From Bacteroidota bacterium (lineage in GTDB: Bacteria; Bacteroidota; Bacteroidia; B-17B0; Aurantibacillaceae), in the NCBI GenBank assembly GCA_020162035.1, contig JAIUNM010000008.1:1-64000 (forward strand): DNA of 64,000 nt. The letters are read 5' to 3'. The notes under the pieces were generated by a model that was not told the DNA's origin, did not search any database, and worked only from the letters and a program-made list of their open reading frames with translations. Positions 18,329-24,787 of the stretch are shown piece by piece (positions within the stretch are counted from its first letter, which is position 1; every line of letters begins with the position of its first letter). The position numbers and the translations under genes are program-made.

Positions 18329-19326
18329 AAAAAATTAAAGTTGCAATTAATGGATTTGGCAGAATAGGAAGAACATTTTTACGAAATGCTTTAAATCAAG
18401 AGCAAATAGAGGTTGTTTGCATTAATGATTTAACTAACACAAAAACATTAGCCCATTTATTTAAATACGATTCAGTTCATAAACAATTTAATGGCGAAAT
18501 AAGTTTTTCTGAAAAATCTATAATTATAAATAACAAAAATATTGCGGTTACTGCAATTAAAAACCCTGAAGAATTGCCATGGAAGCAATATGAAATTGAT
18601 ATAGTTATAGAAAGTACCGGATTGTTTTTATCTAAAACAGATTTGCAAAAGCACATTAGTGCAGGTGCTAAAAAAGTTATTTTATCTGCTCCAGCAAAAG
18701 ATGACGATGTTGTTTCAGTAGTTTTAGGGGTAAACGATGATGTCATCACTAAAGATGTAACAATTATTTCTAATGCTAGTTGTACAACTAATTGCGCAGC
18801 CCCAATGCTAAAAGTTTTAAAAGAATTTGATATTGAAGAAGCATACATAACAACGGTTCATTCATACACAAACGATCAACGCATACACGATGCTCCTCAT
18901 AAAGATTTAAGAAGAGCACGTGCAGCCGCAATGAGTATCATCCCTACTTCTACAGGTGCAGCAAAAGCAATTACTAAAATATTTCCTGATTTAGAAGGTA
19001 AAATTGGTGGTTGTGGTATGCGAGTTCCTGTTCCTAACGGTTCGCTAACGGATATAACTTGCGTATTAAATAAAGCAGTAACCGTTGAACAACTTAACTT
19101 AGCATACAAAAATGCAGCAAACACAAATTTAAAAGGCATTTTGCAATTTACTGATGAACCAATAGTTGGAGTTGATGTAATTGGCAACAGTAATAGTGTT
19201 TTATTTGATGCTGAGTTTACAAGTATTGTAGGTAATTTGGTTAAAGTTATTGGTTGGTACGATAATGAATGGGGCTACAGCAACAGATGTGTTGATTTAG
19301 TAATTAGATTAGGCAAATTTTTGTAA
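18325..19326 (+). CDS. gap: Glyceraldehyde-3-phosphate dehydrogenase, type I
   Basis: The 333-residue cytoplasmic enzyme converts glyceraldehyde-3-phosphate to 1,3-bisphosphoglycerate in glycolysis. The Rossmann motif NGFGRIGR (residues 9-16), Asp35 for NAD selectivity, and catalytic Cys153 in SNASCTTNC are all present, as is the WYDNEWGYSNR C-terminal signature. Four-base overlap with the upstream gene and one-base overlap with the downstream DedA gene show tight packing. Genomes of this group often have a second gap gene; this one may be either the glycolytic or the gluconeogenic copy. Confidence 0.95.
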   Translation: MKKIKVAINGFGRIGRTFLRNALNQEQIEVVCINDLTNTKTLAHLFKYDSVHKQFNGEISFSEKSIIINNKNIAVTAIKNPEELPWKQYEIDIVIESTGLFLSKTDLQKHISAGAKKVILSAPAKDDDVVSVVLGVNDDVITKDVTIISNASCTTNCAAPMLKVLKEFDIEEAYITTVHSYTNDQRIHDAPHKDLRRARAAAMSIIPTSTGAAKAITKIFPDLEGKIGGCGMRVPVPNGSLTDITCVLNKAVTVEQLNLAYKNAANTNLKGILQFTDEPIVGVDVIGNSNSVLFDAEFTSIVGNLVKVIGWYDNEWGYSNRCVDLVIRLGKFL

Positions 19327-19949
19327 TGTGGGAATTTTTAAAACAATTAACAGACCCAAATAGTATAATACAATATGGCGGTTTATGGCTATTACTTTTA
19401 GTTGTTTTTTCTGAAACTGGTTTATTAATTGGATTTTTTTTACCTGGCGATAACTTAATTTTATTGGCCGGTATTTTATGCAAATCTAAACCACACTTAT
19501 TAGGTGTAAATTATATTACAATGGTTGTACTTCTTATAACAGCCGCAGTTTTAGGAAATTTATTTGGATTTTGGTTTGGATACAAAAGTGGCGATATGCT
19601 TTTTAAAAAAGAAGATGGTTTAATTTTCAAAAAAAAACATTTAGTAACTACACAAAATGCTTATGATAAATATGGTGGAAATATGGTTTTAATTATTGCA
19701 AGGTTTTTACCTGTAATTAGAACTTTTGCTCCAATTTTAGCAGGTGCAATTAAAGTTAATTTTAAAAAATTTATGCTTTTTAATATTATTGGTGCAATAT
19801 TATGGATAGTAAGCTTAACTGCTATTGGTTATGTCTCTGTAATTTTGTTCCCATCAATAACAAATTATTTAGGTTATGTTTTTATTGTGCTAATAATACT
19901 TACCGCTTTACCAATAATTAAATTAAGTTTTTTTAAAAAGAATAATTAA
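19326..19949 (+). CDS. DedA/VTT-family membrane protein
   Basis: The 207-residue protein has about five hydrophobic segments and the DedA hallmarks: the ETGLLIGFFLPGDN re-entrant motif (~residues 30-43), LGNLFGFWFGYKSG, and the ARFLPVIRTFAPILAGA segment (~120-137). DedA proteins act as flippases or transporters for undecaprenyl phosphate or phosphatidyl lipids and support envelope homeostasis. The start overlaps the gap stop by one base (TAATG). No partner that would define the lipid substrate is visible. Confidence 0.88.
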   Translation: MWEFLKQLTDPNSIIQYGGLWLLLLVVFSETGLLIGFFLPGDNLILLAGILCKSKPHLLGVNYITMVVLLITAAVLGNLFGFWFGYKSGDMLFKKEDGLIFKKKHLVTTQNAYDKYGGNMVLIIARFLPVIRTFAPILAGAIKVNFKKFMLFNIIGAILWIVSLTAIGYVSVILFPSITNYLGYVFIVLIILTALPIIKLSFFKKNN

Positions 19950-21062: not shown

Positions 21063-22148
21063 TTATTTTGAATTAGCATAAACCAACACATTAAACACAT
21101 ATGGGTTTGCTTTTTTAATTTGTTCAGTACGTTTTAAATTTTTAATTGATGATTTTTTGTTTACAGCAATTTGTAAATCTTCAACATTATTGTTTTTTGC
21201 ATATTCATTAATTGAATATATAATTTGCGAAGCCTTAACTGCAAAACCTGTTCCTTCGGCTATTTTATTTTTACCTCTAATTACACCAATAATATTTGCT
21301 TGCTCATCTAATAAAGGCCCACCGCTATTGCCTGGGTTAATTGGAATACTAATTTGATACATAGTTGTGTCATTTGTATATCCGCTTAAAGAGCTTAATG
21401 AACCTTCGCCATATACCATGTCTTTTCTTGGATAACCAAGTGTAAACACTTTTTCGCCAATATCTACTTTTTTATTACTAATTACAAAAGGAACTTGCCA
21501 GTCTTTTACCTTAACTATATCTGAAATTCTTAAAACGGCTAAATCTAACTTTGAATCGGTGTAAACTACATTTGCAAGCACGCGAGATAATTGCCCATTT
21601 TCAATTAAGACACTATCCGCATCTTTAATCATGTGGTAACTTGTAATTACATAACCATTGTTATTTAATGCAAAGGCGCTTCCTTCATAATTAGCAGGCG
21701 CATAATTTAATTTAGTGTTAGTTTTTACAATTTCTTCAACAATTACTCCATTTGTTTGTTTTAAAACTTCTACATCTCTTCTTAATTCTGTTAGTTCGCC
21801 ATTTGTAGCTTTTTGTTGGTTAATCCATGAAAAAGAAATTAGCATAACTAATAATGCTGTACAAGCTGCTACCGTTATAGTTTTACCATAATGTTTTATA
21901 AAACTAGGTTTATTAGTTAAAGAAATTATTTTAGCATCGTTGCCAAATGCAGCTTGATGAATGGTTTTTAGTTTACTTTTAAGTTCATTTTGTTTTTCAT
22001 TTGCATTTAAAACTTCAATAAGTATTTTATGTTGTTTAAATGCTTGTTCAAATGTACTATCGTTTAACAATCTTTCTTCAAACGATTTTTTATTTTCGGT
22101 TGATAGTTGGTTGTTAAGGTAAAGATCAAATAATTCTACAGTTCTCAT
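21063..22148 (-). CDS. Membrane-anchored trypsin-like serine protease with anti-sigma-like N-terminus
   Basis: The 361-residue protein has three parts. Residues 1-85 are a cytoplasmic helical region that looks like an anti-sigma/FecR-type N-terminus (ELFDLYLNNQLS, SFEERLLND) without zinc ligands. Residues ~91-108 form one membrane span. Residues ~145-320 form a trypsin/HtrA-like protease with His172 (SYHMIKDADS), Asp202 (SKLDLAVL) and Ser275 (NPGNSGGPL), so the triad is complete. No PDZ domain follows. It begins six bases after the ECF sigma gene, so it is probably that factor's membrane partner. The fusion of sensor, anchor and protease in one chain is unusual; regulation of the sigma factor is inferred. 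Confidence 0.8.
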   Translation of the reverse strand: MRTVELFDLYLNNQLSTENKKSFEERLLNDSTFEQAFKQHKILIEVLNANEKQNELKSKLKTIHQAAFGNDAKIISLTNKPSFIKHYGKTITVAACTALLVMLISFSWINQQKATNGELTELRRDVEVLKQTNGVIVEEIVKTNTKLNYAPANYEGSAFALNNNGYVITSYHMIKDADSVLIENGQLSRVLANVVYTDSKLDLAVLRISDIVKVKDWQVPFVISNKKVDIGEKVFTLGYPRKDMVYGEGSLSSLSGYTNDTTMYQISIPINPGNSGGPLLDEQANIIGVIRGKNKIAEGTGFAVKASQIIYSINEYAKNNNVEDLQIAVNKKSSIKNLKRTEQIKKANPYVFNVLVYANSK

Positions 22149-22154
22149 CTTTCT

Positions 22155-22739
22155 TTATTCTTCGTTTATTTCAATTTCTTTATCAAAAAAATACTTTTTT
22201 AAGCGTTGTAAACATTTGTATTTTTGGGTTTTTGCATTATCAGCATTAGTGTAACCAAATTTTTCAGCTATTTCATCCATACTTTTTTTATGAATGTAAA
22301 AATCCTGAATTAAAGTTTTACAAGGTTCTCCTAATAACCCCAAACTACTGTTCATTTTTAAAATGTTTGTTTCTTTTTCGTTATGGTATTGAAGGTCTTC
22401 GGTAACATCTACCAAATCATTGTCTTCATTTTCTTTAAAAAGAAACGTATTTCCATTTTTTTTTAGTTGTTTTAACCACAACCTTTTAGCAATTGAATAT
22501 ATGTAAGTTTGCAACTGACAATTTAATTCAAACTGCTCTTTTTGAACATTTTCAAATACGGCAATAATGGTTTCTTGATACAAGTCTTGTGCTTGCTCGC
22601 TGTTTCCATTATTATTTACAACAAGTTTAAGAACGAGGTTATAGTACTTTTTATACAAAGCATTTAAAACCTCATTATTATTGGCTTTTAAACCAGCAAT
22701 AAATTGGCTGTCGGTAAATTGCAAATTGCTTTTCGACAT
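22155..22739 (-). CDS. ECF-type RNA polymerase sigma factor
   Basis: The 194-residue protein has sigma region 2 (DLYQETIIAVFENV, TYIYSIAKRLWLKQLKK) and region 4 (CKTLIQDFYIHKKSMDEIAEKFGY followed by the recognition helix). It lacks regions 1 and 3, as ECF factors do. It heads a two-gene unit with the membrane protease and is divergent from a small lipoprotein gene. Both upstream sides carry the same GGGTTACC-N14-GTATWAA element, so it probably transcribes its own operon and the lipoprotein gene. Confidence 0.92.
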   Translation of the reverse strand: MSKSNLQFTDSQFIAGLKANNNEVLNALYKKYYNLVLKLVVNNNGNSEQAQDLYQETIIAVFENVQKEQFELNCQLQTYIYSIAKRLWLKQLKKNGNTFLFKENEDNDLVDVTEDLQYHNEKETNILKMNSSLGLLGEPCKTLIQDFYIHKKSMDEIAEKFGYTNADNAKTQKYKCLQRLKKYFFDKEIEINEE

Positions 22740-22753
22740 GTGCTTTGTTTTAA

Positions 22754-22782
22754 TTAATACGTTAAGGTTTTAAAGGTAACCC
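22754..22782 (-). promoter_or_regulatory. Putative ECF promoter of the sigma/protease operon (GGGTTACC-N14-GTATTAA)
   Basis: On the reverse strand GGGTTACC (22782-22775) is followed after exactly 14 bases by GTATTAA (22760-22754), which lies 14 bases before the sigma ATG. The divergent lipoprotein gene has the same two boxes with the same spacing, which a chance match would not readily explain. Assignment to this sigma factor is inferred. Confidence 0.65.
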
Positions 22783-22901
22783 ATGTATTTGATTTTTTAA
22801 AGAAAAAGTATTTAAAAGGGATTTTTGCATTCGATCAAAATAAATTTATTAGATTGATAATCAAAATGTTATAAATATTTTTATTTTATTTTTATTTTTT
22901 T

Positions 22902-22930
22902 GGGTTACCATTTTTAAAAGTAAGTATAAA
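22902..22930 (+). promoter_or_regulatory. Putative ECF promoter of the small lipoprotein (GGGTTACC-N14-GTATAAA)
   Basis: GGGTTACC (22902-22909) is followed after exactly 14 bases by GTATAAA (22924-22930), 34 bases before the ATG at 22965. It matches the reverse-strand element at 22754-22782 in both boxes and spacing. No other GGGTTACC was noticed in non-coding DNA of this window. Confidence 0.65.
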
Positions 22931-22964: not shown

Positions 22965-23195
22965 ATGAAAAAAGTATTCTCAATTATCGCTGTAGCTTTA
23001 TTAGCTACATCATTTGTTGCTTGTGGTCCATCTGCTGAAGAAAAAGCTAAAGCTGAAGCTGATGCAAAACGTATCGCTGATTCTATTGCTACTGCATTAA
23101 CTGAATCTATGAACGCTGCTGTTACTGAAGTAACTGAAGCTGCTACTACTGATTCAGCTGCTGCTGCTACAACTACTACAGTTGAAGCAAAATAA
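22965..23195 (+). CDS. Small Ala/Thr/Glu-rich lipoprotein
   Basis: The 76-residue protein has a lipoprotein signal with lipobox SFVAC (Cys20). After processing only 57 residues remain, with a charged helix (EEKAKAEADAKRIADSIA) and an Ala/Thr/Val-rich tail. Codon choice is narrow (GCT, ACT, GAA, TCT dominate), which suggests strong expression. It is monocistronic, with its own promoter-like element and a strong terminator. Divergence from the ECF sigma gene and the shared promoter make it a likely regulon member, perhaps a small envelope-stress lipoprotein. I do not recognise a named family. Confidence 0.82.
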   Translation: MKKVFSIIAVALLATSFVACGPSAEEKAKAEADAKRIADSIATALTESMNAAVTEVTEAATTDSAAAATTTTVEAK

Positions 23196-23219
23196 TATTT
23201 GTGTTTAGTTAGCTGATTA

Positions 23220-23250
23220 GCCCTTAAGTGTAATGCTTAAGGGCTTTTCT
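23220..23250 (+). terminator. Rho-independent terminator of the lipoprotein gene
   Basis: GCCCTTAAG and CTTAAGGGC form a nine-pair stem around a seven-base loop, followed by TTTTCTGTTTT. It lies 24 bases after the lipoprotein stop codon. Confidence 0.9.
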
Positions 23251-23295: not shown

Positions 23296-24045
23296 TCATT
23301 TTCCAAAAAACTGTTTCATAAAATCGCTGGCAAATACAAAATCAAATAGTTCTTTATTATCTGAGTTTAGGATTTTTGTTTTATCACCTTTCCACCAATT
23401 TTGTCCTTTGTAAACAAACATAATATTTTCACCAATCTGTATTACACTATTCATGTCATGTGTAACAATAATAGTGGTGATATTATATTCTTTAGTAATA
23501 TCGCTAATTAATTCATCTATTATTATACTTGTTTTAGGGTCTAACCCAGAGTTTGGTTCATCACAAAATAAATATTTTGGGTTGTTTGCAATTGCACGTG
23601 CAAGAGCTGCTCTCTTTTTCATACCCCCACTTAACTCTGCTGGGTATAATTTATTTCTACCTGTTAGTTGAACGCGTTCTAAACAAAAATTTACTCTGTC
23701 AGTTTTTTCTTCTTTACTTAATGTCGTAAACATATCTAACGGAAAACGAACATTTTCTTCTAAAGTTTGAGAATCAAACAATGCCCCCCCTTGAAATAGC
23801 ATTCCAATTTCTTTTCTTACAACTTGTTGTTCTTTTTGTTTCATAGCAGCAAAATTTTCGCCACTATACAAAATTTCGCCACTATCAATTGCATGTAAGC
23901 CTACCATTAGTTTTAAAACAGTAGTTTTTCCACATCCGCTTTCGCCAATTATTAAATTTGTTTTACCAGCCTCAAATGTAAAAGACACGTCTTTTACAAC
24001 ATGCCTATCGCCAAAGGTTTTATTAATGTTTTTAATTTCAATCAT
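23296..24045 (-). CDS. mlaF: ABC transporter ATPase, MlaF-like
   Basis: The 249-residue ATPase has Walker A GESGCGKTT (34-42), the signature LSGGMKKRAALARA, Walker B YLFCDEPNSGLD and a His-loop (VTHDMNS). The DEPNSGLDP text and pairing with an MlaE-type permease point to the Mla/Ttg2 phospholipid transport family. That family moves lipids between the two membranes and keeps the outer leaflet asymmetric. It follows the permease gene with one base between. The MlaD lipid-binding subunit is not next to it, so it is either elsewhere or replaced. Confidence 0.85.
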   Translation of the reverse strand: MIEIKNINKTFGDRHVVKDVSFTFEAGKTNLIIGESGCGKTTVLKLMVGLHAIDSGEILYSGENFAAMKQKEQQVVRKEIGMLFQGGALFDSQTLEENVRFPLDMFTTLSKEEKTDRVNFCLERVQLTGRNKLYPAELSGGMKKRAALARAIANNPKYLFCDEPNSGLDPKTSIIIDELISDITKEYNITTIIVTHDMNSVIQIGENIMFVYKGQNWWKGDKTKILNSDNKELFDFVFASDFMKQFFGK

Positions 24046-24046
24046 A

Positions 24047-24787
24047 CTAAACCAACATTAATTTGGTAATTATTAAATTGATAATTAAAATTAAAATACT
24101 ATTGTAAACAACTGATTTTGTACTTGCTTTACCAACCTCTAATGCCCCACCACTTGTATAATAACCGTGGTAAGCAGAAACTGAAGTAATTACAAAAGCA
24201 AAAACTACCGTTTTAGTTAATGCATAAACAATATTATAAGGGATAAAAAAACTTTGTATCCCAAAAATATATTTTTCAGCATCACAAGCACCAGAAAATA
24301 CCCCAAACAAAAAGCCTCCAAATACACCTAAAAACATACTTATTGTAATTAAAAAAGGATTTATAAACATTGCAGCTAAAATTTTTGGGCGAATTAAATA
24401 ACCAGCAGAGTTTATGCCCATAATTTCTAGTGCATCTATTTGCTCCGAAATCCTCATTGTTCCTATTTCAGAGGCTATATTAGAACCAACTTTACCCGCT
24501 AAAATTAACGACACAATGGTGGGCGAAAATTCTAATACAATACTTTCTCTAGTTCCTAAACCTATGGCATAACGCGGAATAAACGGGCTCGTAAAATTAT
24601 AAGCAGACTGTATAGTAATTACGCCTCCCATAAAAATTGAGATTATGGCTATTAAACCTAATGAACCAATACCTAAAGAATTTATTTCGTATAAAAACTG
24701 ATTAAAGTAAACTCTAAAATTTTCGGGCTTAGAAAACACACGTTTTAAAAGCATAAAATACCTGCCTATATGGTAAATGGGTTTCAA
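24047..24787 (-). CDS. mlaE: MlaE-family lipid ABC transporter permease
   Basis: The 246-residue integral membrane protein has about five to six hydrophobic segments. The MlaE motifs are clear: GVITIQSAYNF, RESIVLEFSPTIVSLILAGKVGSNIASEIGTM and ISEQIDALEIMGI. It is the membrane part of the Mla phospholipid transporter and is encoded directly before its ATPase, one base apart. The preceding ALDH gene ends 37 bases upstream on the same strand, so read-through from that gene is possible. Confidence 0.88.
   Translation of the reverse strand: MKPIYHIGRYFMLLKRVFSKPENFRVYFNQFLYEINSLGIGSLGLIAIISIFMGGVITIQSAYNFTSPFIPRYAIGLGTRESIVLEFSPTIVSLILAGKVGSNIASEIGTMRISEQIDALEIMGINSAGYLIRPKILAAMFINPFLITISMFLGVFGGFLFGVFSGACDAEKYIFGIQSFFIPYNIVYALTKTVVFAFVITSVSAYHGYYTSGGALEVGKASTKSVVYNSILILIINLIITKLMLV

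Follow-up and report, generated by a model that had tools for sequence, protein, structure and literature searches.

A conserved two-box promoter element of Bacteroidota, probably recognized by an ECF sigma factor encoded with a predicted anti-sigma/protease fusion

Two copies of a two-box element lie between two divergent genes in the window (the whole stretch of 64,000 nucleotides that was analyzed), and both very probably serve as promoters of the ECF sigma factor whose gene adjoins them. The −35 box is GGGTTACC (core GGTTAC) and the −10 box is GTATTAA or GTATAAA, the two being placed 14 nucleotides apart. This assignment was made by sequence comparison with orthologous loci, in which the element recurs upstream of the sigma gene and of small lipoprotein genes.

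The two copies and the sigma gene

The copy on the minus strand (22754 to 22782), which reads GGGTTACC-TTTAAAACCTTAAC-GTATTAA from 22782 to 22754, consists of a −35-like box at 22782–22775, a 14-nucleotide spacer, and a −10-like box at 22760–22754. Its second box ends 14 nucleotides upstream of the ATG of the sigma gene (22739), and it is the putative promoter of the sigma/anti-sigma operon. The copy on the plus strand (22902 to 22930), GGGTTACC-ATTTTTAAAAGTAA-GTATAAA, has its boxes at 22902–22909 and 22924–22930, likewise separated by 14 nucleotides, and ends 34 nucleotides upstream of the ATG of a small lipoprotein gene (22965), of which it is the putative promoter. A preliminary description had called these promoters identical, with a spacing of exactly 14 on both sides. 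The spacing was confirmed at both sites, the boxes agree, and both sets of coordinates were correct, but the spacer sequences of the two copies differ.

The sequence GGGTTACC-N14-GTATWAA was found twice in the window, whereas none was expected, as none of 100 dinucleotide-shuffled versions of the window contained it. A search of the complete genome (3,173,705 bases, 31 contigs) for GGGTTACC-N13-15-GTAT gave these two sites and no others. The vegetative promoter of Bacteroidetes has a −33/−7 consensus with TAnnTTTG. A vegetative promoter was rejected because this consensus does not fit the second box. A generic sigma-70 scan yielded fewer sites than in shuffled sequences (9 versus 13.3), and a tRNA was the sole match in an Rfam search of the window.

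The gene at 22155–22739 on the minus strand encodes a 194-amino-acid protein that matched TIGR02937 (4e-19, residues 25–183) and Sigma70_r2 (6.6e-12). The product has the composition of an ECF (group IV) sigma factor: regions 2 and 4 are present, regions 1.1 and 3 are absent, and the length is about 190 residues. No separate match for region 4 was reported in Pfam; the TIGR02937 match extends over residues 25–183 of the 194 residues, and the region-4 stretch GYTNADNAKxQKYKCLQRLK was almost invariant in the alignment of sigma orthologues.

The regions upstream of the orthologous sigma genes of 61 relatives belonging to the same genus, family, and class were examined by an iterative two-box search. 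The identity of the sigma factors among these relatives ranged from 38% to 100%, and the element was present upstream of the sigma gene in all 61. GGTTAC was invariant in the 61 promoters; in the second box, position 1 was G in 59, position 3 was A in 61, and position 4 was T in 60. The spacer was 13 to 15 nucleotides long, mostly 14, with 15 in distant relatives. Control stretches within genes never exceeded the 8-bit threshold (0/366), and shuffled upstream regions did so in 2 of 1220 cases. Because the spacer beyond its first few bases drifted among the relatives while the boxes stayed fixed, the boxes and the distance between them appear to be under selection.

In a second sample, 84,980 species genomes were scanned with protein patterns only, which gave 80 further loci in Pedobacter, Mucilaginibacter, Parapedobacter, Sphingobacterium, Larkinella, Spirosoma, Fibrivirga, Niabella, Daejeonella, and uncultured lineages. 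At these protein-found loci, the element was located just upstream of the sigma gene in 80/80 at a threshold of at least 15 bits and in 79/80 under a stricter pattern; the genomes compared are related, and neither these counts nor those of the 61 loci are independent trials, although the sigma identities cover a wide range. At loci of Pedobacter, Daejeonella, and Mucilaginibacter (L419, L425, L437, L440, and similar ones), only 2 to 3 nucleotides separate the −10 box from the GTG start codon of the sigma gene, and a leaderless sigma mRNA is therefore possible there.

The predicted membrane protein encoded after the sigma gene

A gene on the minus strand at 21063–22148, beginning 6 nucleotides past the stop codon of the sigma gene, encodes a 361-amino-acid protein with a Trypsin_2 match (3.4e-21). 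From the N terminus, it consists of an anti-sigma-like helical domain, a transmembrane helix, a coiled coil, a DegS-like serine protease without a PDZ domain, and a conserved C-terminal tail. The AlphaFold model had a mean pLDDT of 84.9 and contained a confident three-helix N-terminal domain, a further helix at residues 119–141, and a short conserved C-terminal helix plus strand. The putative cytoplasmic domain (residues 1–71, 21936–22148, minus strand) is composed of helices 3–11, 17–29, and 31–71, with a pLDDT of about 90 to 97 over most of its length. The predicted transmembrane helix (residues 83–111, 21816–21902, minus strand) is hydrophobic and helical in the model, and A94-A95 in it are invariant.

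The predicted periplasmic trypsin-fold domain (about residues 154–320, 21189–21689, minus strand) was delimited by Pfam, the model, and a PDB fold match. H172, D202, and S275, the catalytic residues, were invariant in both homologue alignments (45 and 49 sequences), and the best PDB fold match of the model was DegS-deltaPDZ (E of about 1e-12). The trypsin fold with a His-Asp-Ser triad places the domain in the HtrA/DegS family. No PDZ domain was found in Pfam or in the model, and the chain ends 40 residues past the protease domain. The protein would work like DegS, but it was not classified as DegS. The C-terminal tail (21063–21130, minus strand; EQIKRINPYVFNVLVY) is strongly conserved and lies outside the catalytic domain.

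Full-length versions of the fused protein were found in about 60 genomes, which belong to the same genus, family, and class. Its gene directly followed the orthologous sigma gene in 61/61 relatives, and at the 80 other loci a protease-type ORF followed the sigma gene in roughly 70 or more. When the N-terminal domain was modeled alone, 15 PDB chains were matched at E ≤ 10. Thirteen of these chains belong to anti-sigma factors of ECF type (RslA, the SigK partner, RsiW, and MucA), each individually non-significant (E > 2). The commonest weak Pfam match was zf-HC2, an anti-sigma zinc-finger family, which was obtained for 14 of 42 members with a best value of 0.0018, below the cut-off. A PDB sequence search with this domain gave only coiled-coil-like chance matches to nuclear receptors. 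A short helical cytoplasmic domain preceding a single transmembrane helix, encoded next to a sigma gene, is the arrangement of class I anti-sigma domains. The N-terminal part is therefore predicted, from its modeled fold and its genetic context, to be an anti-sigma domain that lacks zinc and is joined to a protease of the DegS type; the fold matches agree in 13 of 15 cases, though none is significant alone.

It is conceivable, on the other hand, that the protein is an ordinary membrane-tethered envelope protease belonging to the regulon, and that the sigma factor is controlled in some other manner. Such an arrangement would accord with the lack of a significant family or fold match for the N-terminal domain, and class I anti-sigma genes have been found near just 6% of the ECF genes of Bacteroidetes (Wu et al., PMC7406223). 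However, the adjacency to the sigma gene in all 61 relatives and in most of the other loci, the three-helix cytoplasmic domain followed by one transmembrane helix, and the agreement of the weak fold and zf-HC2 matches argue against it, and we consider it unlikely.

Lipoprotein genes preceded by the element

The gene downstream of the plus-strand copy (22965–23195, plus strand) encodes a 76-amino-acid protein with a signal peptide and a lipobox at Cys20 (FVAC-GPSAEEK). It is followed by a strong intrinsic terminator (23219–23245, plus strand) with a 12-bp stem, AGCCCTTAAGTG…, and then TTTCTGTTTT; the lipoprotein mRNA is thus probably monocistronic. Convergent with it, at 23296–24787 on the minus strand, are genes for an MlaFE-like lipid transport pair, made up of an ABC ATPase and a permease of the MlaE type.

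A lipoprotein gene of the MKK/MKN type was divergent from the sigma gene at 47 of the 61 loci. The element preceded it in 45/47 genomes, usually 34 nucleotides from the ATG, and the remaining two carried degenerate versions. In one genome (G023), the lipoprotein gene was on a different contig from the sigma gene and retained the element. In addition, 64 of the 80 loci of distant genera had at least one small lipoprotein gene with its own copy inside 3 kb, and ten genomes of cultured genera had one to four such genes, near or far from the sigma gene. Four tandem small lipoprotein genes, about 350 nucleotides apart and each with its own promoter copy, were located beside the sigma gene of Mucilaginibacter pankratovii (L436, G108:C22, approximately 18691–19760). 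In Sphingobacterium yanglingense and Parapedobacter tibetensis, small lipoprotein genes were unlinked from the sigma gene, yet carried the element. At loci of the same genus as the window (L035, L038, L045, L046, and others), a second small lipoprotein of the CGPAAEDR type was encoded after the first without a motif of its own; this second gene is not present in the window.

The tripeptide D-[ST]-[AILVMT] is the O-glycosylation sequon of exported proteins in Bacteroidota (PMC8550257, PMC12871550). It occurred 669 times in 157 different small lipoproteins (mature sequences) whose genes lie behind the motif, compared with 125 ± 10 times in shuffled sequences, a roughly fivefold enrichment whose size should be taken cautiously because these proteins are related to one another and in part repetitive. 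No enrichment was seen for the reversed motif (118 versus 125) or the E-substituted motif (65 versus 64), and the K version was depleted. The 76-amino-acid lipoprotein of the window has only two sequons (DSI and DSA). By their sequon content, the small lipoproteins are candidate O-glycoproteins.

When this genome was searched with a profile trained on the sigma and lipoprotein promoters and nothing else, four sites reached E < 1e-3, two known and two new. The new site C2:111299 precedes a gene for a 287-amino-acid coiled-coil lipoprotein, and the new site C5:99126 precedes a gene for a lipoprotein related to DUF4349, relatives of which exceed the Pfam cut-off. A fifth match, C23:20297 (E of 0.008), was rejected: it lacks the first box and is located at a methyltransferase-like ORF. 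All three non-sigma targets in this genome encode predicted lipoproteins, which bears out the expectation that the sites cluster at envelope genes. The element had also been offered as a ready search string for the whole regulon. In its literal form, GGGTTACC-N13-15-GTATWAA, the string finds two of the four probable sites but misses the other two, and a loose scan allowing up to three mismatches was noise as a regulon search (214 matches versus 231 in the reversed control). The literal string is thus too strict and the loosened form too noisy, so that a profile or footprinting of orthologues is needed.

Both new families were matched independently in many relatives, with denominators drawn from protein searches. 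Of the 30 closest orthologues of the 287-amino-acid lipoprotein gene, 22 had the element upstream, as did 7 of 19 other family members. About 40% of these genes in the family lacked it, which indicates that this regulon member has been gained or lost. The DUF4349 genes carried the element in 19 of 28 cases. At L330 (G008) and L331 (G032), a DUF4349 gene without the motif lay about 80 nucleotides downstream of the anti-sigma/protease gene, and would therefore be read from the sigma promoter; the gene has apparently joined the sigma operon in these two genomes. Occasional further targets in relatives were genes for a vWF_A lipoprotein, a DUF2459 protein, and a DUF4294 protein.

The element could also be read by another regulator, whether a different sigma factor, an activator, or a repressor, that jointly controls the sigma operon and the lipoprotein genes. 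Other ECF sigma factors are presumably encoded in the genome, the motif is connected to this one through comparison of sequences, and GGTTACC is nearly palindromic (GGTNACC) like an operator. Among relatives, however, the eighth base of the first box was C, T, or A and the GGTNACC symmetry was lost, so that the palindromic operator reading was rejected. The fixed spacing of 14 to 15 nucleotides and the constant orientation to the gene are promoter-like, and the element was found at the sigma gene's own promoter wherever the orthologue occurred, across several genera. Moreover, none of the 19 class-level genomes from outside the family had the element at its orthologue of the 287-amino-acid lipoprotein gene (0/19). 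Control by another regulator thus seems very unlikely. A chance or copied repeat devoid of promoter function has next to no probability, even though the intergenic DNA is AT-rich and loose matches are about as frequent as in the reversed control, and is already contradicted by the conservation data, by the zero expectation for exact copies, by the differing spacers of the two copies, and by boxes that were kept while spacers drifted across genera. The preliminary description had proposed that this sigma factor probably recognizes the element, and that assignment is supported by the sigma promoters (61/61 and 79–80/80), the divergent lipoprotein genes (45/47), the unlinked copy in G023, and the lipoprotein genes outside the training sample.

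A possible envelope-stress switch and its relation to known systems

ECF autoregulation itself is well known. By the leftward copy, the sigma/anti-sigma operon would be self-activating, and from the rightward copy the small lipoprotein gene would be transcribed. In resting cells, the sigma factor is probably bound by the cytoplasmic N-terminal domain of the fused inner-membrane protein. An envelope signal would free it, most simply if the fused protein were cut first by its own protease domain, or by a sister one, and then by an intramembrane protease. The free sigma factor would transcribe its own operon and a few lipoprotein genes; in this genome, four promoters would be served, those of the sigma operon and of the 76-amino-acid, 287-amino-acid coiled-coil, and DUF4349 lipoprotein genes. 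More tentatively, and with appreciable doubt, the system may be a Bacteroidota-wide envelope-stress switch in which the anti-sigma factor and the site-1 protease form one self-cleaving polypeptide, and the main output of which is an outer-membrane coat of small lipoproteins, tandemly duplicated and O-glycosylated (mucin-like).

What sets this case apart is how widely the system is conserved, together with the predicted anti-sigma/protease fusion and the lipoprotein regulon. The wiring of sigma factor, promoter, and putative fused sensor appears, from the loci compared, to recur over a large part of Bacteroidota, and the system is kept both in uncultured lineages and in soil bacteria that have been cultured, such as Pedobacter and Mucilaginibacter. 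New here are the predicted union, in one chain, of anti-sigma domain, transmembrane helix, and PDZ-less DegS-like protease, and the sequon enrichment in the small lipoproteins. No report of a fused anti-sigma/trypsin-like protein or of GGTTAC as an ECF motif of Bacteroidota was found in the literature covered, which did not include the ECF reclassification (Casas-Pastor 2021), where an earlier description is possible. The control of ECF sigma factors in Bacteroidota is largely open, and the present case offers a probable recognition sequence together with a regulon of few members and a candidate for the sensor. The function of protein glycosylation in this phylum has been called still unknown (PMC12871550), and the sequon enrichment in the controlled lipoproteins ties a stress regulator to it.

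Several known systems resemble this one in part. EcfO of Bacteroides fragilis, which is cited in PMC12596196, is likewise a stress-response ECF sigma factor of the phylum. The FecI/FecR-type pairs of Bacteroidetes also have a membrane anti-sigma factor encoded directly after the ECF sigma factor, but here the FecR domain and the adjacent TonB receptor are absent and a protease is found instead. The Dma dual membrane-spanning anti-sigma factors share a Bacteroidota ECF sigma factor and an unusual membrane anti-sigma factor acting on the outer membrane; by their published description, however, Dma proteins span both membranes, whereas the periplasmic part here is a predicted serine protease, and the two were set apart on this basis. 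A further likeness is to RpoE (sigma-E)/RseA/DegS of Enterobacteria and AlgU/MucA/AlgW of Pseudomonas, which combine a self-activating ECF sigma factor with an inner-membrane anti-sigma factor, an HtrA-family periplasmic protease of the DegS fold, and envelope targets including lipoproteins. RpoE-type promoters are of the GAACTT/TCTGA type, whereas the promoter here is GGTTAC-N15-GTATTAA, and the regulon is very small and made up of lipoproteins. Unlike RseA and DegS, the anti-sigma factor and the protease are predicted here to be one polypeptide without a PDZ domain; if the fusion works as proposed, RseA-like and DegS-like functions would be united in a single chain.
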